Source: a virus. From it: a stretch of DNA of 26,664 nucleotides. How positions within the stretch are numbered: position 1 is the stretch's first letter; every line of letters begins with the position of its first letter. Positions 8,007-22,647 of the stretch are shown here, one piece after another. The position numbers and the translations under genes are program-made. Under the pieces are notes generated by a model, which ran no database searches, had not been told where the DNA came from, and saw only the letters and a program-made list of their open reading frames with translations. The stretch spans positions 1-26,664 of the IMG/VR virus record IMGVR_UViG_3300020205_001010. One strand, 5' to 3'.

Positions 8007-9303
8007 CGTATTGTCCATAACTTGGATTGAGTTCGAAATACATTCTCATCATGATTGCGTCGGCAACGTCGGGCGAAATTCCTTCGCGGTTCTTGATAAC
8101 GTCCTTCGGTGTGACCATTAACTTTCCTTCCACGTCTGCGCGGTGTCGCTTAATCATTTCTAACTCTTTGACGATTTGTTCTTTGCGTCCATTGACTAAG
8201 ATAGTGAGCCGATTTTCCTCGACGTATTGAGCCAATTTGTAGTAACACTCGCTTTTCAAATTTTGGTATTGCGGTTGTTTGGGTTTAGATCCGTTGACGA
8301 ACCCGCGACACTTAAGAAAATCAACTACTCCAGCACCGATTCCGTCCTCATCTGCAACGACATCCTGTAACAAAATGTTATGTTCTTTTGTTACGAGACG
8401 TATCTTGTTTACGACCTCATCTAACGACGCTCTGTTGAGTTCAATTATTTCAATAATCGTCAATCCGTTCCAAACACAAATGATTGTCCTATCCTTTCCA
8501 AAACGCGCTATGTCGGCGGTAATATATTTCTTTCCTTCAATGAGTTCGTTGCGGAACATACGCAGCAGGTTGTCCGTTGAGAATAGTTTGTCGCTGTCGT
8601 CGTCAAATTCCCAGTTGCCTTCGAGCAGACGTTTGCGGTCGTACTCTGGAAGGCGACGCAACGATTCAATGTAAGCAACCGGTAAGAACGGATTGTCCTG
8701 CGGTAACGCCTGAACGAATGCGCGGTGTGAAGGTAGTTCGTTACGGTTGTTCTTAATATAAAACTCATTGTAAAGCCAACCCTTCGCAGGATTGCAAGAA
8801 AGAAAACCTTTCGGTATCAAGTTAAACTCATTTAACTTAAAACGACAACGTGAGTGAACAATGCTGACTGCCTTTTCGGTTACTTCGGAACACTCGTCAA
8901 TAAAGTAATCTGTGATTTCTAACGATCCGAGTGAATTAAAATTTACATCTGAGGGGTAAGCGAACAAATCTTTTAGAACAATTTCGCTTCCGTTAAAGAA
9001 CTTAATCACGTTGGATTGTCCGTTGAAAGTGTAGTGTTTGTTTGCTATCAATCCAAACTCCTCAGCCGTTTCAAAGAACGTGTTTAATGTCGTCTTTTTA
9101 AGCGTGTCTAATTTGCTACGTCCAATCAACGAACGTGTACCTGCGTACTTCAAACGACGTTGTATCTGCCACATACAACCGAACTTCGTCTTACCACCCC
9201 CTGCCGCGCCACCGTATAACAACTGTTCAACGATGCTATCGGTGTTCAGAAAGTTCAACGCTTCAATCTGACGCGGCAGGTATGTTGGTTTATAGGGTGT
9301 CAA
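7996..9303 (-). CDS. terL: Terminase large subunit (TerL)
   Basis: The 435-residue packaging motor and nuclease has both catalytic domains. In the ATPase, Walker A is GGAAGGGKT (31-39), Walker B is YFIDE (133-137) and the coupling motif is SCNP (169-172). In the RNase H-like nuclease, metal ligands are probably Asp264 (TADIARFGKD), Asp318/Asp320 (VVADEDGIGAG) and a late Asp in SPDVADAIMM. TerL cuts concatemeric DNA and pumps it through the portal. The start is TTG at 9303, sharing the four bases TTGA with the stop of the upstream Mom-like gene; the next Met lies beyond the Walker A motif, so the TTG is needed. It is transcribed opposite to the head genes and far from the portal, which is unusual. 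Confidence 0.95.
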   Translation of the reverse strand: MTPYKPTYLPRQIEALNFLNTDSIVEQLLYGGAAGGGKTKFGCMWQIQRRLKYAGTRSLIGRSKLDTLKKTTLNTFFETAEEFGLIANKHYTFNGQSNVIKFFNGSEIVLKDLFAYPSDVNFNSLGSLEITDYFIDECSEVTEKAVSIVHSRCRFKLNEFNLIPKGFLSCNPAKGWLYNEFYIKNNRNELPSHRAFVQALPQDNPFLPVAYIESLRRLPEYDRKRLLEGNWEFDDDSDKLFSTDNLLRMFRNELIEGKKYITADIARFGKDRTIICVWNGLTIIEIIELNRASLDEVVNKIRLVTKEHNILLQDVVADEDGIGAGVVDFLKCRGFVNGSKPKQPQYQNLKSECYYKLAQYVEENRLTILVNGRKEQIVKELEMIKRHRADVEGKLMVTPKDVIKNREGISPDVADAIMMRMYFELNPSYGQYVVG

Positions 9304-10010
9304 AATAATTCAGTTTGAATAAGCGGTTTATAACTAGCATCATATCTTTTATTTTCTCCTTTTGGATATGATTTAATAGAAAAATGTTCGTTAATTATTT
9401 TGTTCATTTTGTTCTTAAATTTTTTATCTCCACAAACAAAAAAATATCTGTGCTTTCGCTCTTGCTTTAAAATTTGACCTCCATTTTTAATCCAATTTTC
9501 GTTTTTTGTTTTTGATTTATCAATTTGAAATTTATATCTTAACATGGTTTCTGGTATATGTCTTTCGTGAAATTCTTTGTTATTAAAAAAAAATCTGTTT
9601 ACTCCTCTTTCATCTTTTTCATTTACCCTTCCTGCTCCAGTATAAACCCAATTAGTTGCTTGATAAATATATCCATTATGCCCGTTGTTTGGATCAGCAT
9701 AAGAAACTACAACACATTTTTTCATTTGTTTCAAACAATTAGAAACAAAATAACTTAATGAATTTTTATCTAATCCGTCTTTTACACACAATCTATTTAA
9801 CTCATAATAACTTTCTCCAGAAAACAAAGTTGAAAAAAAAGGAGTTGGTGGCATACCAAACGTACATATACCAACTAATAAATTATTTTCAAATAATCCA
9901 AAAGAATAAGATATACTACACATTCTTTTAGCATAATGTTTTTTTAATAACCATTCTTTGCATAAAAAAGAATCAATACTTTGAATTTTATATTTTTTTT
10001 TTATTGACAT
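9300..10010 (-). CDS. Mom-like adenine-modification protein
   Basis: The 236-residue protein matches the pattern I know from the phage Mu Mom family (GNAT-like fold; converts adenine to N6-carbamoylmethyladenine). It shows HYAKR (His25, Tyr26), SISYSFGLFE, VGICTFGMPP, YELNRLCV (69-76), VVSYADPNNGHNGYIYQATN (starts at 101) and WVYTGAGR. From memory, Mu Mom depends on a His-Tyr pair and on Asp and Tyr residues 10 apart; here Asp106 and Tyr116 have the same spacing. Such modification blocks many restriction enzymes. The gene is strikingly AT-rich (12-19 G+C per 60 bases in three lines I counted, against 31 in a terminase line), so it is probably a recent acquisition. It overlaps the upstream gene by 10 bases and terL by 4. 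Confidence 0.8.
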   Translation of the reverse strand: MSIKKKYKIQSIDSFLCKEWLLKKHYAKRMCSISYSFGLFENNLLVGICTFGMPPTPFFSTLFSGESYYELNRLCVKDGLDKNSLSYFVSNCLKQMKKCVVVSYADPNNGHNGYIYQATNWVYTGAGRVNEKDERGVNRFFFNNKEFHERHIPETMLRYKFQIDKSKTKNENWIKNGGQILKQERKHRYFFVCGDKKFKNKMNKIINEHFSIKSYPKGENKRYDASYKPLIQTELF

Positions 10011-15224: not shown

Positions 15225-15629
15225 ATGAACGTGAAAACTTTTAAGAAATCTTATAAAAAAAGTGTACCGAAGCGTAAAATCGCACCCGAAAGCGAAGCGA
15301 ACCAACAAGAGATCGTGATAAAATATCTTCGTTTAGCATATCCTCACGTTCTTTATTGCGCTTCCGCAGGTGGAATGAGGACAAGTTACCTTCAAGCAAT
15401 CAAGATGAAGCGTACCGGTTATGTCAAAGGCTTTCCAGACCTATTCATATACGAACCGAATCAAGACTATCATGGTCTTGCTATTGAAATGAAGAAAGAG
15501 AAAGGCGGTGTTGCATCACCCGAACAAAAGTCATGGCAGGAACAATTGAGAAACAGGGGATATGCTTCGTATATTTGTAAAGGTAGCGAGGAAGCAATTA
15601 AGATAATAGACGAATACTTTAATGGGTGA
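15225..15629 (+). CDS. VRR-NUC domain nuclease
   Basis: The protein has the signature of the VRR-NUC family of PD-(D/E)XK nucleases. It shows an EANQQEIVIKYLRLAYPHVL N-terminal helix, a VKGFPDLFI strand with the catalytic Asp, an AIEMKKEKGG strand with the Glu-x-Lys pair, and SPEQKSWQEQLRNRGYASYI. These enzymes cut DNA flaps or Holliday-like joints in phage replication or recombination. The ATG at 15225 (134 residues) is preferred over a TTG two codons upstream. A basic N-terminal extension (KTFKKSYKKSVPKRK) may bind DNA. It is the first gene of a rightward cluster, whose promoter I cannot place with confidence. Confidence 0.88.
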   Translation: MNVKTFKKSYKKSVPKRKIAPESEANQQEIVIKYLRLAYPHVLYCASAGGMRTSYLQAIKMKRTGYVKGFPDLFIYEPNQDYHGLAIEMKKEKGGVASPEQKSWQEQLRNRGYASYICKGSEEAIKIIDEYFNG

Positions 15630-16129
15630 CACTTGAGAACTACATAGAAGGACACTATAAGCATTTCAAAGAACTTGCTTACAGCATCGCGCGTAAAGAA
15701 CCATTCTACGAGGATCTCTTGCACGACTCTTTGCTTTCTATGTTTGGTTCAAAGCATATCGAGAATCTAATTGACACAGGCGACTTCGAATTCTATCTTA
15801 TCCGCGTAATGTATCTTTCCGTTAATTCACCACGTTCGCCTTTCTACAAACAAACAATCGCTTGGAACAGAAACCGACGGGACTTCAAAGACTACGCTCA
15901 CGAAGTTGACAAGACGTGGTTAGGCGCACGAATGACAAACGAACAACTCGATATTCTTATAAGTAGGTTGAGCGAGTTTGAACGGTTAATCTTTCAGGAA
16001 TACATTCTCGAAGATTTTACCTACCGCGAACTATCCAAACAGACGGGAATACCTGTTACCTTCCTTTACCGAACAATAGATAATATCAAACAAAAAATAA
16101 GAGCCAATGTTATTCGCAAAACATCATGA
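15626..16129 (+). CDS. Sigma-factor-like (ECF-type) regulator
   Basis: The 167-residue protein starts at GTG 15626, sharing GTGA with the nuclease stop. The N-terminal region (LAYSIARKEPFYEDLLHDSLLS) fits sigma region 2 helix pairs (ED..HD). The C-terminal part, LSEFERLIFQEYILEDFTYR then ELSKQTGIPVTFLYRTIDNI, is a region 4 helix-turn-helix at about residues 116-155. Such phage proteins redirect host RNA polymerase to late promoters or act as DNA-binding regulators. The middle is longer and more polar than in typical ECF factors. Sigma-like is well supported; sigma activity is not shown. Confidence 0.75.
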   Translation: MTLENYIEGHYKHFKELAYSIARKEPFYEDLLHDSLLSMFGSKHIENLIDTGDFEFYLIRVMYLSVNSPRSPFYKQTIAWNRNRRDFKDYAHEVDKTWLGARMTNEQLDILISRLSEFERLIFQEYILEDFTYRELSKQTGIPVTFLYRTIDNIKQKIRANVIRKTS

Positions 16130-16544
16130 GTACAAAAGACGCTTAGACATTTGTCGAGCGTGTAAATTCTTCGAACCTTCAACGCAGTCATGTGGAACTT
16201 TAATAGTAGGTGACGAAGTAGAAACCGAAGTCCTATTCCGTCGCAAATCAATTAAGTTGTGTGGTTGCGTTATGCCGGTAAAAGCAAAACTCGCGTTCGC
16301 TTCCTGTCCAGCGTCAAAATGGGACGGTGTTCTTTCAGTTGAGGAACAAATAGAGTTCAAACGTTTTCTTCTTGATATGAAGGCGAAGGGACGTTTAGAG
16401 CAAAATGATATGCTTCGCTTCTATTCGTTCAAGGATAAAGCCACAGGAGCGTTCAACGAGCGTTCAACGTGTCCGCCTTGCGTGAAGAAAGACATCAATA
16501 GCTTTCTTGAATCGATGAAGGACGTTGACGTCAGCATTGATTAA
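16107..16544 (+). CDS. Cysteine-rich, probably zinc-binding protein
   Basis: The 145-residue protein carries eight cysteines in an ordered pattern: DICRACKFF (Cys16, Cys19), SCG (Cys29), LCGC (Cys52, Cys54), SCP (Cys67), and a late TCPPC (Cys122, Cys125). The first six are typical of a zinc- or iron-sulfur-holding module often seen next to phage regulatory genes; the C-terminal pair stands apart after a charged helix (FKRFLLDMKAKGRLEQ). It overlaps the sigma-like gene by 23 bases and meets the convergent small gene at 16541-16544. It may partner the sigma-like protein, a link suggested only by position. Confidence 0.7.
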   Translation: MLFAKHHEYKRRLDICRACKFFEPSTQSCGTLIVGDEVETEVLFRRKSIKLCGCVMPVKAKLAFASCPASKWDGVLSVEEQIEFKRFLLDMKAKGRLEQNDMLRFYSFKDKATGAFNERSTCPPCVKKDINSFLESMKDVDVSID

Positions 16545-16768
16545 AGATGCAAGTGAAAGTCTTGTAAACTCAATACGTCCCCTCTGAGGTTGTTATTGAC
16601 GTCGTGCCAACGCATACCACTCAAAAAGAAATCAACTGTCTTATTCGGTGTAAAAACGCGAAAGTGACCATGTTGGAAATGATGCCATGTAATAACATTG
16701 TTTGTCTTGTAATTAGTAAGCAATTGAATGAACATGTCTTGCTTTGCTTTCTTGTTTATTTTACTCAT
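16541..16768 (-). CDS. Small protein downstream of the structured non-coding region
   Basis: The 75-residue protein begins MSKINKKAKQDMFIQLLTNY and continues VITWHHFQHGHFRVFTPNKT, VDFFLSGMRWHDVNNNLRGD. The FRVF.PNKTVDFFLSG..WHD pattern resembles small phage proteins of unknown role with a short beta-hairpin fold. It is the only leftward gene in this neighbourhood and lies about 450 bases from the leftward promoter at 17218. The intervening RNA is therefore either its leader or a separate RNA. It overlaps the convergent Cys-rich gene by 4 bases. Confidence 0.7.
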   Translation of the reverse strand: MSKINKKAKQDMFIQLLTNYKTNNVITWHHFQHGHFRVFTPNKTVDFFLSGMRWHDVNNNLRGDVLSLQDFHLHL

Positions 16769-17217
16769 ATATTTTAGTTATGGACATAGAAAGGTTTATG
16801 GGTGAAAAGACATTAAACTCGCATTTATGCCTTATCATTAATCCTTTTAACTACTACTTAATAGTGTTTAGTAGTTACTCATAATTCAGAAGATCCTGCA
16901 TGGGTTACAGGCAATCAGTTAACTATGTCTAGTTTCACCCCCAAGTTCCACCTCTGGATTGCTTGGATTATTTATAACTGTTGTTACTGGTTAATTGTAT
17001 AATCTCAAAAATGATACTCAATGTCATTTCCTACCACTACAAATAACCTTCCTTCTAATTATCACGTTCATTCACCAACTTCACACTTCGTTGGTATGGG
17101 TTGAATGTGGACAAGACCATTCCTCACTTATCTAAAAAGAAGTTGCCCCGCACACCGTACTCGTTAACTTAATAACAGCACAATGCTTGGGGCAATGCTT
17201 TGAGATTAACGAGTATT
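16769..17217 (-). ncRNA. Candidate structured non-coding RNA or long structured leader
   Basis: These 449 bases have no credible protein gene but are rich in complementary pairs. They include the pseudoknot at 17143-17215 (separate entry), a nested stem with CATTCA and CCAAC (17069-17079) pairing with GTTGG (17090-17094) and TGAATG (17102-17107), a long-range GCAATC/GATTGC pair (16911-16916 with 16957-16962), and a 9-bp perfect hairpin TAACTACTA/TAGTAGTTA (16848-16856 with 16869-16877, 12-base loop). A leftward promoter at 17218-17251 would start RNA within a few bases of the pseudoknot arm. I do not recognise tmRNA, tRNA, 6S or a group I/II intron core. The 3' end is unknown; no clear terminator is visible. 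Confidence 0.6.
17143..17215 (-). other. Predicted H-type RNA pseudoknot at the 5' end of the leftward RNA
   Basis: On the minus strand, TACTCGTTAA (17215-17206) pairs perfectly with TTAACGAGTA (17167-17158), 10 bp. Between these arms, TTGCCCC (17195-17189) pairs perfectly with GGGGCAA (17149-17143), 7 bp. The order a-b-a'-b' is the crossing arrangement of a pseudoknot. The connecting bases hold an AGCA-TTG-TGCT mini-hairpin. The G-C content of the second stem stands out in AT-rich surroundings. Confidence 0.65.
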
Positions 17218-17251
17218 CAAATATAAAAAACAATCATCTTGTTTCAACAAA
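17218..17251 (-). promoter_or_regulatory. Leftward promoter of the structured RNA
   Basis: On the minus strand TTTGTTG (17251-17245), 19 bases, then TATATTTG (17225-17218). Boxes and spacing are the same as in the early-operon promoter at 15150-15183. Expected transcription start is about 17212-17214, at the 5' arm of the pseudoknot. It is back to back with the methyltransferase promoter. Confidence 0.8.
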
Positions 17252-17264
17252 TAGATTTCAACAA
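17242..17264. repeat. Direct repeat TTTCAACAA in the divergent promoter region
   Basis: TTTCAACAA occurs at 17242-17250 and again at 17256-17264, start to start 14 bases. The first copy overlaps the leftward -33 box and the second lies just upstream of the rightward one, so a protein bound here could control both. This may be chance in AT-rich DNA. Confidence 0.4.
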
Positions 17265-17267
17265 CTA

Positions 17268-17298
17268 TTGAATGTTAATAATTAATTTCGTATATTTA
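17268..17298 (+). promoter_or_regulatory. Rightward promoter of the methyltransferase gene
   Basis: TTG (17268-17270), 20 bases, then TATATTTA (17291-17298), one base off the TAnnTTTG box. The ATG at 17303 starts only 5 bases after the -7 box, so the mRNA is probably leaderless. The palindrome AGCATATGCT (17298-17307) covers the start codon and could be an operator. Confidence 0.6.
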
Positions 17299-17302
17299 GC
17301 AT

Positions 17303-17923
17303 ATGCTTACAATTACAAACGAAGATAACATGGACTTAATGTCAAGGTATCCAGATAAACACTTCGACCTTGCAATAGTTGACCCGCCGTATGGTATAAA
17401 TGTAAACGTTTCAATTGGACGAAGAAAAGGAGATAAAAAAAGTACTTATCATAAATTTGCAGGAAACGATTGTTGTATTCCTTCAAAAGATTACTTCAAT
17501 GAATTATTTCGTGTTTCTAAAAATCAAATAATTTGGGGTGGTAATTATATGACTGAATACTTAAAACCTTCTTCGTGTTGGCTTTTATGGGACAAAGGTT
17601 TTTCTGAAGATGTTACTTTTGCTCAATTAGAACTTGCGTGGACTTCATTTAATTCAAGTGCGAAAAAATTTGATAAACACCCAAGTCAGCAAAATAGAAT
17701 ACACCCAACACAAAAACCCGTAGCCCTTTACAAATGGCTTTTAGAAAAATACGCTCAACAAGGCGACAAGATACTCGACACCCACTTAGGTAGTGGCTCA
17801 ATAGCGATAGCGTGCCACGATTACAACTTTGATTTAACAGCCTGTGAACTTGACAAAGAATACTTCGACAAAGCAATGCAACGAATAAACAACCACACCG
17901 CACAAATAAAAATGTTTCAATGA
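17303..17923 (+). CDS. DNA adenine methyltransferase (N6-A, beta-type order)
   Basis: The 206-residue enzyme transfers a methyl group from S-adenosylmethionine to adenine in DNA. Motif IV, DPPYGIN (Asp27-Tyr30), comes first. A putative target-recognition part is short and includes IIWGGNYM. HPTQKP (134-139) is motif X-like, and motif I is LDTHLGSGS (158-166), with CELDKEYF (181-188) as the acidic motif II. DPPY before motif I is the beta-class order. No cognate restriction gene is adjacent, so it is probably an orphan phage enzyme that protects DNA or marks it. Target sequence cannot be read. It overlaps the next gene by 4 bases (ATGA). Confidence 0.92.
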   Translation: MLTITNEDNMDLMSRYPDKHFDLAIVDPPYGINVNVSIGRRKGDKKSTYHKFAGNDCCIPSKDYFNELFRVSKNQIIWGGNYMTEYLKPSSCWLLWDKGFSEDVTFAQLELAWTSFNSSAKKFDKHPSQQNRIHPTQKPVALYKWLLEKYAQQGDKILDTHLGSGSIAIACHDYNFDLTACELDKEYFDKAMQRINNHTAQIKMFQ

Positions 17924-19617: not shown

Positions 19618-19793
19618 ACCAAGTGCTTGGAAGATACGGTTGGTATCACCTTTTCATGGAAGCCTGCGGACGCGACATAACAAAGTTGGACGCAATTACG
19701 GAAAAATCAGCGTGGGAGATATTTACTTATATGACTTACCTAATAGACTACAATTATGTCGAACGTACAAAGCTACAACGCACTTATAGATAG
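19509..19793 (+). CDS. Frameshift extension of the tail assembly chaperone (gpGT-like)
   Basis: In the -1 frame, 94 codons are open between the T9 site and TAG at 19791. They include EDREGLNQVLGRYGWYHLFM, EACGRDITKLDAITEKSAWE and IFTYMTYLIDYN. The GWYHLF.E..GRDITKLD segment is a conserved pattern in Bacteroidota phages at exactly this place, and it has no start codon of its own that would make sense. The full fusion would be about 253 residues (159 from the first frame plus 94). It overlaps the fibre gene start by 38 bases. The T domain normally recruits tail tube subunits while the G domain binds the tape measure. Confidence 0.65.
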   Translation, partial: FDFAQRTKQHFARLFGERGAEVDEGIDGGIEDREGLNQVLGRYGWYHLFMEACGRDITKLDAITEKSAWEIFTYMTYLIDYNYVERTKLQRTYR

Positions 19794-22647
19794 ATTCAAG
19801 GCATTCGCCTCTGGACACTTTATTCTTAAGACCTTTTCACACGGGCAAATAGACACGGCAGACCTTGAAAAGTTTACCGAATATCCCTTTATGCACGTTG
19901 TGCCTTCGAATGTTACTTACGCGAAAGGTACTAAAACGTTCTCTTTTCAGATTGTCCTTGCGGATCTACCGCGCGACAAAGACAGCAAAGTTGAATTTCA
20001 ACGCGAGGTGTTGTCCGACCTTCAAAGAATCGCAGAAGATTTGATTGCTGAGATTACCAACCACCGAATGTTGTTTGGTGACTTAATCACGGTGCAAAAT
20101 GTCACGCTTGAACCATTCCTTGAAGAATTTCACAACACATTAACCGGTTGGACGGTTAGTTTGGAACTTCTCGTTCCGTATTACTGGGATGCGTGTAGTA
20201 TTCCTGCGGAGTGGAACGACTTCTTCGAAAGCGGAAGCGGTGGCACAGGTTCAATCTTAACGTTCATCGACTCAATAGTACGCGACGAGAATGGAAACGT
20301 TTCTTTAGTCAACGACGAAGCAACACCTTTGCCTAACTATTACTACGGAACGGACGACGAAGGGGTGCGCGGTTGGTACTTGACAACGGACAACATCGGT
20401 TTGACTTGCGAAACGATTGGAGATTGTCAAACGATAATAGACATCGAAGCAGCCATTGACGCACTCGAAGAAGAAATACTTTTAAAGGCTGACATCACGA
20501 GCATCAGCGCGGTTGGTTTCTCGAATGACTACAACGACTTAGACAACCTTCCGACAATACCAACTGGAACGGTTACTTCGGTAGGTTTAACAATGCCTTC
20601 CGCATTTAGTGTGGCGAATAGTCCAATTACGACTTCAGGAGATATAGCGGTAACAGGAGCAGGTACTGTTTCTCAATATGTGAGAGGTGATGGTAGCTTA
20701 GCAAACTTTCCTTCGTCAACAGGTGGCGGTTCTTCGTTAGCTTTCTACTTGAACGGATCAGTAGCACAGGGTACAATAGGCGGTGTGGCATTTAAGGAAA
20801 TGGACAGAACTCCTGTCTTTGGTGCAGGTACTGATTTCACAATAAACGCGAATGGATACATTCAATCTTTTATCACAGATGCGAATGTACCGAATCAATT
20901 AGAGATACCGGCAGGAAATTGGAATTTTGAAACATATTTCAGCGCGTCAAGTAGCGGAGGTACACCTTCATTCTACGTTGAGCTATACAAGTGGAACGGA
21001 GCAACTTTATCTTTGATAGCGTCCAACTCAGCTACTCCCGAAGGCATTACAAATGGAACGGCAATAGATGCGTATTTCAGCGCATTAGCAGTTCCGCAAA
21101 CAACGTTAGCAGCTACCGATAGGTTGGCAATTAGAATTTACGTTACACACTCGGGAAGGACAATTAAACTTCACACCGAGAACAGTCATTTGTGTCAAGT
21201 CATTACTACCTTCTCAACAGGCTTAACTGCATTGAATGGCTTAACGGCACAGGTGCAAAACTTCGCAACGGGAACAAGTGGAACTGACTTCGCTATCTCA
21301 TCTGCGACAAGTACACACACTTTCAACCTTCCAACTGCAAGCGCAGCTAATAGAGGTGCATTAAGTTCTGCGGATTGGAGTACATTTAACGGCAAGTTTA
21401 CGCTACCTGCTTTAACAAGCGGAAGCGTTCTATTCAGCAACGGCACAACGATAGCGCAGGACAATGCAAATCTTTTCTTTGACGATACCAACAATAGGTT
21501 GGGTGTTGGTACGGCTACACCTGCAACAACATTACAAATAGCAGGAACAACTACAACGCAAAATATACTTGTTCAAACAGGCGCAACTTATGACATAGGA
21601 GTCTCTGCAACAAGATTTCGAGATGCTTGGTTTAGCAGAAATGTTCAATGTGGTTCAGTTTGGACAGCTAACATAGCAATTGCTGCAACCAACTTAACAT
21701 TTTATAACAACTCGGTTGCTGTTCTTGGTACTTTATTTGGCACAGGCAATTTACTTCTTTCAACAGGAACACAAACAGACGCAGGCTACAAGTTAGATGT
21801 GAATGGAACGGCGAGAGCTAATTCAATATTCTTTGGCGCAGGTTTGCCTTCGGTTTTATCAGTAGATCCAACAACCGCACTTACAAATATTACAACGGCA
21901 GGTACATCAGTAAGGATAGGTGATAATGTTGGAAGTACTATTACCGGTTATCAAGCTTACGTTACTTCACCTGGCATAGCAGATAGACAATACACATCGG
22001 GTGAGGGTGGTGTAATGATGTTAGGAAGTACTTTAGGTTTTAACCGAACTTTCTCACCAACTTCAGGCACAGGAATTTTCAATATCTTAAGATTATCTTC
22101 TACCATTAACCAAACAGGCGGTGCTAACGGAATAACAAGAGGTCTTTACATCAATCCAACGCTAACAGCTGCTGCGAATTTCAGAGCTATTGAAACAACA
22201 GCAGGACGTGTAGTAATTTCAGATACAGCTACTGTAACAGGAACAAACGCTACCTCTTTATTAGACCTTTCACAAACGTGGAACACAACAGGCGCACCCA
22301 TTGCTTTGAAAGTAAATATAACAGATACGGCAAGTGCTTCACTTTCTGATTTAATCAGTTTGCAGGTTGGCGGCTCAGTAAGATTTAGAGTGTTAAAATC
22401 AGGGTTTTTTACTTTTAATACAGGCGGTGAAATTGCAGGTAACTTAGTTATTGGTGGTAGCACCATTGACGCATCTTCTCAAGTAGAAGTTAGAAGTGTA
22501 ACAAAAGGCTTCCTTCCTCCGCGAATGACCACAACGCAAAAGAACGCTATTGCTTCACCTGCGGCAGGCTTGGTAGTTTACGATACAACACTCAATAAGC
22601 TTTGCGTTAGAACAGCGGCAGCGTGGGAAACAATAACATCACTTTAA
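19756..22647 (+). CDS. Fusion of tail-completion-like domain and tail fibre
   Basis: The 963-residue protein begins with an alpha/beta domain (about 1-155: YNALIDRFKAFASGHFILKT, FSFQIVLADLPRDKDSKVEF, WTVSLELLVPYYWDAC) of the kind usually encoded as a separate tail terminator or completion protein. A GSGGTGS linker (about 160-166) leads to an elongated, repetitive fibre. The fibre has a GWYLTTD motif near 207, a beta-sandwich domain (about 325-490), ALNGLTAQVQNFATGTSG and ANRGALSSADWSTFNG (conserved fibre motif), NNRLGVGTATPATTLQIAG and a C-terminal GFLPPRMTTTQKNAI. The distal part probably binds host surface glycans. The start ATG at 19756 lies inside the chaperone extension. Confidence 0.75.
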   Translation: MSNVQSYNALIDRFKAFASGHFILKTFSHGQIDTADLEKFTEYPFMHVVPSNVTYAKGTKTFSFQIVLADLPRDKDSKVEFQREVLSDLQRIAEDLIAEITNHRMLFGDLITVQNVTLEPFLEEFHNTLTGWTVSLELLVPYYWDACSIPAEWNDFFESGSGGTGSILTFIDSIVRDENGNVSLVNDEATPLPNYYYGTDDEGVRGWYLTTDNIGLTCETIGDCQTIIDIEAAIDALEEEILLKADITSISAVGFSNDYNDLDNLPTIPTGTVTSVGLTMPSAFSVANSPITTSGDIAVTGAGTVSQYVRGDGSLANFPSSTGGGSSLAFYLNGSVAQGTIGGVAFKEMDRTPVFGAGTDFTINANGYIQSFITDANVPNQLEIPAGNWNFETYFSASSSGGTPSFYVELYKWNGATLSLIASNSATPEGITNGTAIDAYFSALAVPQTTLAATDRLAIRIYVTHSGRTIKLHTENSHLCQVITTFSTGLTALNGLTAQVQNFATGTSGTDFAISSATSTHTFNLPTASAANRGALSSADWSTFNGKFTLPALTSGSVLFSNGTTIAQDNANLFFDDTNNRLGVGTATPATTLQIAGTTTTQNILVQTGATYDIGVSATRFRDAWFSRNVQCGSVWTANIAIAATNLTFYNNSVAVLGTLFGTGNLLLSTGTQTDAGYKLDVNGTARANSIFFGAGLPSVLSVDPTTALTNITTAGTSVRIGDNVGSTITGYQAYVTSPGIADRQYTSGEGGVMMLGSTLGFNRTFSPTSGTGIFNILRLSSTINQTGGANGITRGLYINPTLTAAANFRAIETTAGRVVISDTATVTGTNATSLLDLSQTWNTTGAPIALKVNITDTASASLSDLISLQVGGSVRFRVLKSGFFTFNTGGEIAGNLVIGGSTIDASSQVEVRSVTKGFLPPRMTTTQKNAIASPAAGLVVYDTTLNKLCVRTAAAWETITSL

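Follow-up and report, generated by a model that had tools for sequence, protein, structure and literature searches.

ROOL and GOLLD are the closest described likeness to the RNAs reported here, being structured RNAs of phages and prophages that hold several pseudoknots and have no known partner or function (PMC12286853). They measure about 660 and over 800 nucleotides, often lie near tRNA islands and form RNA-only oligomeric cages (PMC12286853). The RNAs described here belong to this same known kind, that of large, structured RNAs of phages whose function is unknown (PMC12286853). However, the example analysed in most detail is shorter (about 435 nucleotides), the surrounding DNA carries no tRNA genes (although proximity to tRNA genes is not a strict criterion), and three alternative classes occur at one locus. 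The three RNAs are a separate set of families, whose allelic arrangement we did not find described.

Other known systems share single traits with this locus. The pairing of a structured phage RNA with an adjacent protein gene is also seen in type III toxin–antitoxin systems and in AbiF, whose RNA RCd22 is active in cis and in trans (PMC12373285). The neighbouring gene here differs in that it encodes only 75 amino acids without a match to an Abi family, and in that it is frequently missing from the RNA locus. The 6S-flavo RNA (Rfam RF01685, PMC2864571) is a structured Bacteroidota RNA of broadly similar habit, but no match to it was found at either the gathering or a relaxed threshold.

The DNA analysed is a 26,664-base IMG/VR virus record (hereafter the window). 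Because its terminase is nearest to that of Flavobacterium phage 11b (best match, 49%), the host is probably a member of the Bacteroidota. Relatives were gathered by searching with a neighbouring protein, orf145 (16107-16544), which yielded 149 virus stretches, 80 of which were kept. Scans of IMG/VR with core sequences of each RNA class recovered 18 (type A, the class in the window), 34 (type B) and 50 (type C) contigs from 80 datasets. The carriers form a large clade of uncultured phages, kin to Bacteroidota phages and known through environmental DNA. In one relative (L042), an inverted duplication around orf145 and a sigma-like gene is probably an assembly artefact.

Searches for known families gave no assignment. 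No family in Rfam 15 reaches its cut-off, and the covariance models for GOLLD and ROOL give no useful score, in keeping with the sequence-only reading, which had seen no recognisable similarity to either and had proposed this search. The c4 antisense RNA of P1-like phages (Rfam RF01695) is a small phage RNA whose allelic versions set immunity. The likeness to it is that of a small phage RNA locus, but there is no Rfam c4 match here, and no antisense target emerged incidentally. Type B scores 29 bits against the Betaproteobacteria-1 RNA (Rfam RF02932, gathering score 49.4) and shares some loop letters with it. This hit and one to mir-96 were rejected as chance-level, given that the spurious microRNA scores alike (E of 0.003 against 0.002).

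The RNA also had no blastn match among 50,697 phage records, and at the blastn level it is absent from cultured phages. Covariance models for type A (R3) and type C (R1), run with strict filters and no positive control, were each applied to 396 Bacteroidota genomes and yielded no hit. When cellular genomes were scanned with a DNA pattern for the pseudoknot, nine hits appeared, all judged on reading to be chance. The open-access papers searched hold no description of these RNAs.

The predicted elements of the type A RNA are listed in Table 1. Its strand has a folding energy of −121.5 kcal/mol, compared with −96.4 ± 5.9 for shuffled sequences (z = −4.26; none of 100 shuffles as good). The perfect stems reported by the sequence-only reading are all present, namely a 10-bp stem (S1) that crosses a 7-bp stem (S2), and a 9-bp hairpin (16848-16856/16869-16877). 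A long-range pair that it had given as 6 bp does exist, but spans 8 bp (16800-16807/16933-16940). The domain closed by this pair holds four hairpins (16921-16934, 16895-16911, 16849-16876 and 16821-16830), three of which contain compensatory pairs. Several helices are invariant, including this closing stem and the long-range stem 16787-16793/17051-17057, and here the support is pairing rather than covariation. S2 is likewise nearly invariant in type A and so contributes little covariation of its own. A further perfect 10-bp long-range pair (17000-17009/17199-17208) was excluded because it is broken in several relatives (L023, L055 and L057).

Table 1 Predicted features of the type A RNA locus and its surroundings (window positions)
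Feature	Positions	Strand	Evidence
RNA promoter, TTTG-N22-TATATTTG	17218-17251	−	Pattern scan; conservation in type A relatives
Type A structured non-coding RNA	16780-17215	−	Alignment; pair counts
S1 5′ arm (alpha), pairs with 17158-17167	17206-17215	−	Two compensatory pairs, E about 1e-4
S1 3′ arm (gamma)	17158-17167	−	Perfect 10-bp stem with 17206-17215
S2 5′ arm, pairs with 17143-17149, crosses S1	17189-17195	−	Perfect 7 bp
S2 3′ arm	17143-17149	−	Perfect 7 bp with 17189-17195
Beta, alternative partner of gamma (17163-17166) inside S2 hairpin	17173-17176	−	Covaries with alpha and gamma
U-rich run CUUCUUUUU directly after S2	17134-17142	−	Sequence; putatively terminator-like
Two stacked stems, CATTC/GAATG and ACCAAC/GTTGGT	17069-17107	−	Helices 3 and 4; one compensatory pair
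Stem-loop GGTTA-TTGTA/TACAA-TAACC, inner AAATGA/TCATTT	16989-17048	−	Helices 6 and 7
Hairpin CCAAG/CTTGG, inner TCC/GGA, constant loop AGAGGT	16941-16966	−	Helices 9 and 10; three compensatory pairs
Domain closed by long-range stem GGGTGAAA/TTTCACCC	16800-16940	−	Pair counts; closing stem invariant
Long-range stem 17051-17057/16787-16793	16787-17057	−	Helix 5; invariant
p75, the next gene after the RNA (75 codons)	16541-16768	−	Predicted alpha-beta5-alpha fold, pLDDT 88

Compensatory mutations show that this fold is kept by selection. In an alignment of 16 type A sequences, the 85 nested pairs are 98.7% canonical, compared with 31–42% when the columns are slid by one to three positions. Type B reaches 99.6% for 81 pairs, and S1 reaches 99.7% across 41 distinct type B and C sequences. 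These shares are biased towards the named structures because the structures were drawn on the same sequences, and thus two-sided changes constitute the stronger evidence. Such changes affect 9 of the 85 type A pairs, a count matched by none of 500 shuffles, 12 pairs in type B and 11 of 44 in type C. In type A, compensatory changes are spread over a number of helices and also occur in S1. The sequence-only reading had called for a search of homologues for changes of this kind.

We also devised a tree-based test in which substitutions are re-dealt along the tree and only named pairs are scored. It gives E < 0.05 for 6 of 87 pairs in type A (two of them in the crossing stem S1, which was counted on an alignment with a hand-moved gap), 8 of 89 in type B and 5 in type C. 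Named pairs were used because a test of all possible pairs lacked power: at this low power it returned 0, 0 and 1 significant pairs for A, B and C, and when the pseudoknots of B and C were pooled no pair fell below 0.05. In five type A relatives (L057 and L098-L101), alpha, beta and gamma have all changed and both pairings of gamma are still possible; this three-strand change may represent a single evolutionary event. In the pseudoknot alignment of types B and C, a loop purine (column 60) changes with S1 pair 19-53, being G with G-C and A with A-U, which could reflect a base triple or shared descent only.

Coding sequence does not account for this conservation. The sequence-only reading described 16769-17217 as gene-free, and none of the small open reading frames on either strand is kept among relatives. 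Furthermore, substitutions in the RNA stretch fall at the three codon positions 94/127/106 times, which reveals no periodicity, compared with 66/29/139 for the adjacent 75-codon gene (p75). Decayed coding sequence is not supported on this basis. The type A RNA is also more conserved than p75 (92–98% identical against 81–96%). Thus, compensatory change within a conserved structure and the absence of a coding signal, both of which mark a structured non-coding RNA of phages, are found together here, and the central proposal of an undescribed structured phage RNA is supported. Given that the fold is kept by selection, these phages probably use a previously undescribed RNA tool during infection.

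A leftward promoter of Bacteroidota type had also been proposed, and one is found at the expected place. The element TATATTTG and the TTTG 22 bases upstream of it are conserved across type A relatives while the spacer diverges. The same pattern with identical spacing recurs once, at 15183-15150, just upstream of a leftward gene cluster. As the pattern is only weakly enriched in the window (4 matches versus 1.75 expected), we regard the fact that relatives retain it ahead of the RNA as better evidence than the pattern itself. Transcription from this element would begin near 17213 and run leftward.

The sequence-only reading recognized a structured RNA locus, but the allelic arrangement and the three classes lie beyond what it saw. 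Wherever a relative's sequence extends far enough past orf145, a single RNA is present, either A, B or C, and among fetched loci with enough sequence the RNA sits at a nearly fixed distance from orf145. No contig in the larger IMG/VR sets carries two types. The loci without an assigned type are short: three (L026, L075 and L129) end within 170 bases, and two (L035 and L093) end inside the region, the latter pair carrying p75 together with the initial portion of type A. Type B is a different non-coding stretch of a length similar to A, which precedes a p75 homologue on the other strand. Type C is a third non-coding stretch, found in many relatives without p75. Type A lies on the strand opposite to orf145 and is inverted relative to B and C.

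The first 85 or so nucleotides follow one plan in all three classes, a GC-closed hairpin and then a U-rich run. Types B and C share the promoter-like TATATTTG and a 5′ pseudoknot that is interchangeable; its variants occur with either the B or the C body, and therefore this module recombines. The type A pseudoknot has the same layout as that of B and C without sequence similarity. The 3′ bodies, which range from roughly 130 bases (C) to 350 (A and B), show no detectable similarity to one another, and homology between them is rejected since none of the covariance models detects a class other than its own.

The account we favour, at a little better than even likelihood, is that a phage non-coding RNA, independent of the neighbouring genes, is produced here from a promoter of its own, with a 5′ gate and a body that acts in trans. 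The first 85 or so nucleotides would serve as the gate, because S2 and the U-run resemble a terminator hairpin and gamma can pair with alpha or beta. Gamma would form the pseudoknot with alpha at the 5′ end or, in type A, a longer hairpin with beta. A simple terminator scan of the window scored no site in the RNA region, the U-rich run included. Read-through would yield the full RNA, whose body would act on some target of the host or the phage; a protein or ribonucleoprotein is the most plausible candidate. Because A, B and C exclude one another and one of them is always present, they seem to do the same job, as alternative solutions to one task, with p75 as accessory cargo in A and B. If the three alleles do share one job, the job is done by the RNA itself.

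A fuller version, which we offer tentatively and regard as doubtful in its entirety, holds that the RNA is obligatory for these phages and that a 5′ pseudoknot gate has been recombined with dissimilar, trans-acting effector bodies, one of them inverted, directed at a host factor. If true, these phages exchange functional RNAs at a single locus much as others swap protein cargo genes or immunity regions. ROOL and GOLLD are known as large structured phage RNAs but their roles are not, and the locus adds three independent classes from a phage clade that about 80 metagenome datasets contain, with an RNA in every relative examined. A size suited to bench work, the ready covariation map and the natural swapping of alleles therefore make the role of large phage RNAs testable.

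Rather unlikely, but the best placed of the rivals, is a cis-acting leader, a 5′ untranslated region for p75 (in A) or for the next gene (in B and C), with the 5′ hairpin or pseudoknot as attenuator and the body as a sensor governing read-through or translation. Only some 12 bases separate the final helix strand of type A from the p75 start, as expected of a leader, which counts against an independent RNA. The RNA also ends just upstream of p75 in p75-bearing type B loci, a terminator-like hairpin follows the start, and the alpha, beta and gamma strands could form a switch. However, no type C locus has p75, nor do 16 of the 31 type B loci that extend far enough; B and C are followed by varied genes, and type A is directed away from these. 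Moreover, the RNA is better conserved than p75. A leader for p75 or for a downstream operon is thus not the common function; the earlier suggestion of a leader for the 75-residue gene fails as a general function, since other RNAs fill the slot without that gene, and is conceivable within type A, where p75 is a constant partner.

The conservation of the bodies bears on a different proposal, that the locus is a terminator joined to a small-RNA unit. An RNA of about 75–85 nucleotides would be the product, in B and C the element would also end the upstream operon, and the body would rarely be transcribed. The promoter immediately upstream and the GC-closed hairpin and U-run of B and C fit this scheme, but the bodies are conserved at least as well as the 5′ module and themselves show compensatory change, and therefore they must be used. 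We consider the proposal improbable.

More improbable still is a toxin–antitoxin or abortive-infection pair, like type III systems or AbiF and RCd22, with p75 as effector and the RNA as antidote. A structured RNA does immediately precede p75 in type A and at 15 of the 31 type B loci, but RNA types B and C occur without it. No tandem repeats such as those of type III antitoxin RNAs were found, and p75 has no Pfam or PADLOC match and no confident structural relative for its predicted structure. In one relative (L012) the type A RNA stays 98% identical to that of the window while p75 falls to 81% in the same comparison.

The last alternative, in which the inverted repeats stem from the strand symmetry of a DNA element, for instance a replication origin, had been raised by the sequence-only reading and is now very improbable: the locus is always occupied and gene-free, and a near-DnaA box (TTGTCCACA) is conserved in most type A sequences, but the changes keep RNA-level pairing, G-U pairs included, TTWTNCACA is rarer in the window than expected (2 versus 5.4) with neither copy inside the RNA region and no DnaA-box cluster, and the cumulative skew has no sharp turn at the RNA locus.

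Several further observations concern the genes around the RNA. Homologues of p75 at type B loci are 56–60% identical, and no relatives were found in cultured phages; the L012 protein (67% identical) has several type-B-like residues beside a type A RNA 98% identical to that of the window, which suggests recombination between the RNA and the p75 gene. The slot between orf145 and a gene for a 117-amino-acid protein (16545-17920 in the window; surveyed in L001-L080) holds a changing gene set beside the RNA, including methyltransferases and proteins of 131, 149, 201 and 232 amino acids among others, and constitutes a hotspot of exchangeable cargo. A 963-amino-acid protein (19756-22647) has no Pfam match and a PHROG match at chance level only. 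Two genes before the RNA, 15626-16129 encodes a sigma-factor-like protein (phrog_1740, E = 2e-11) that could recognize phage promoters, and 9300-10010 encodes a Mom-like DNA modification protein (phrog_1384, E = 1e-49).
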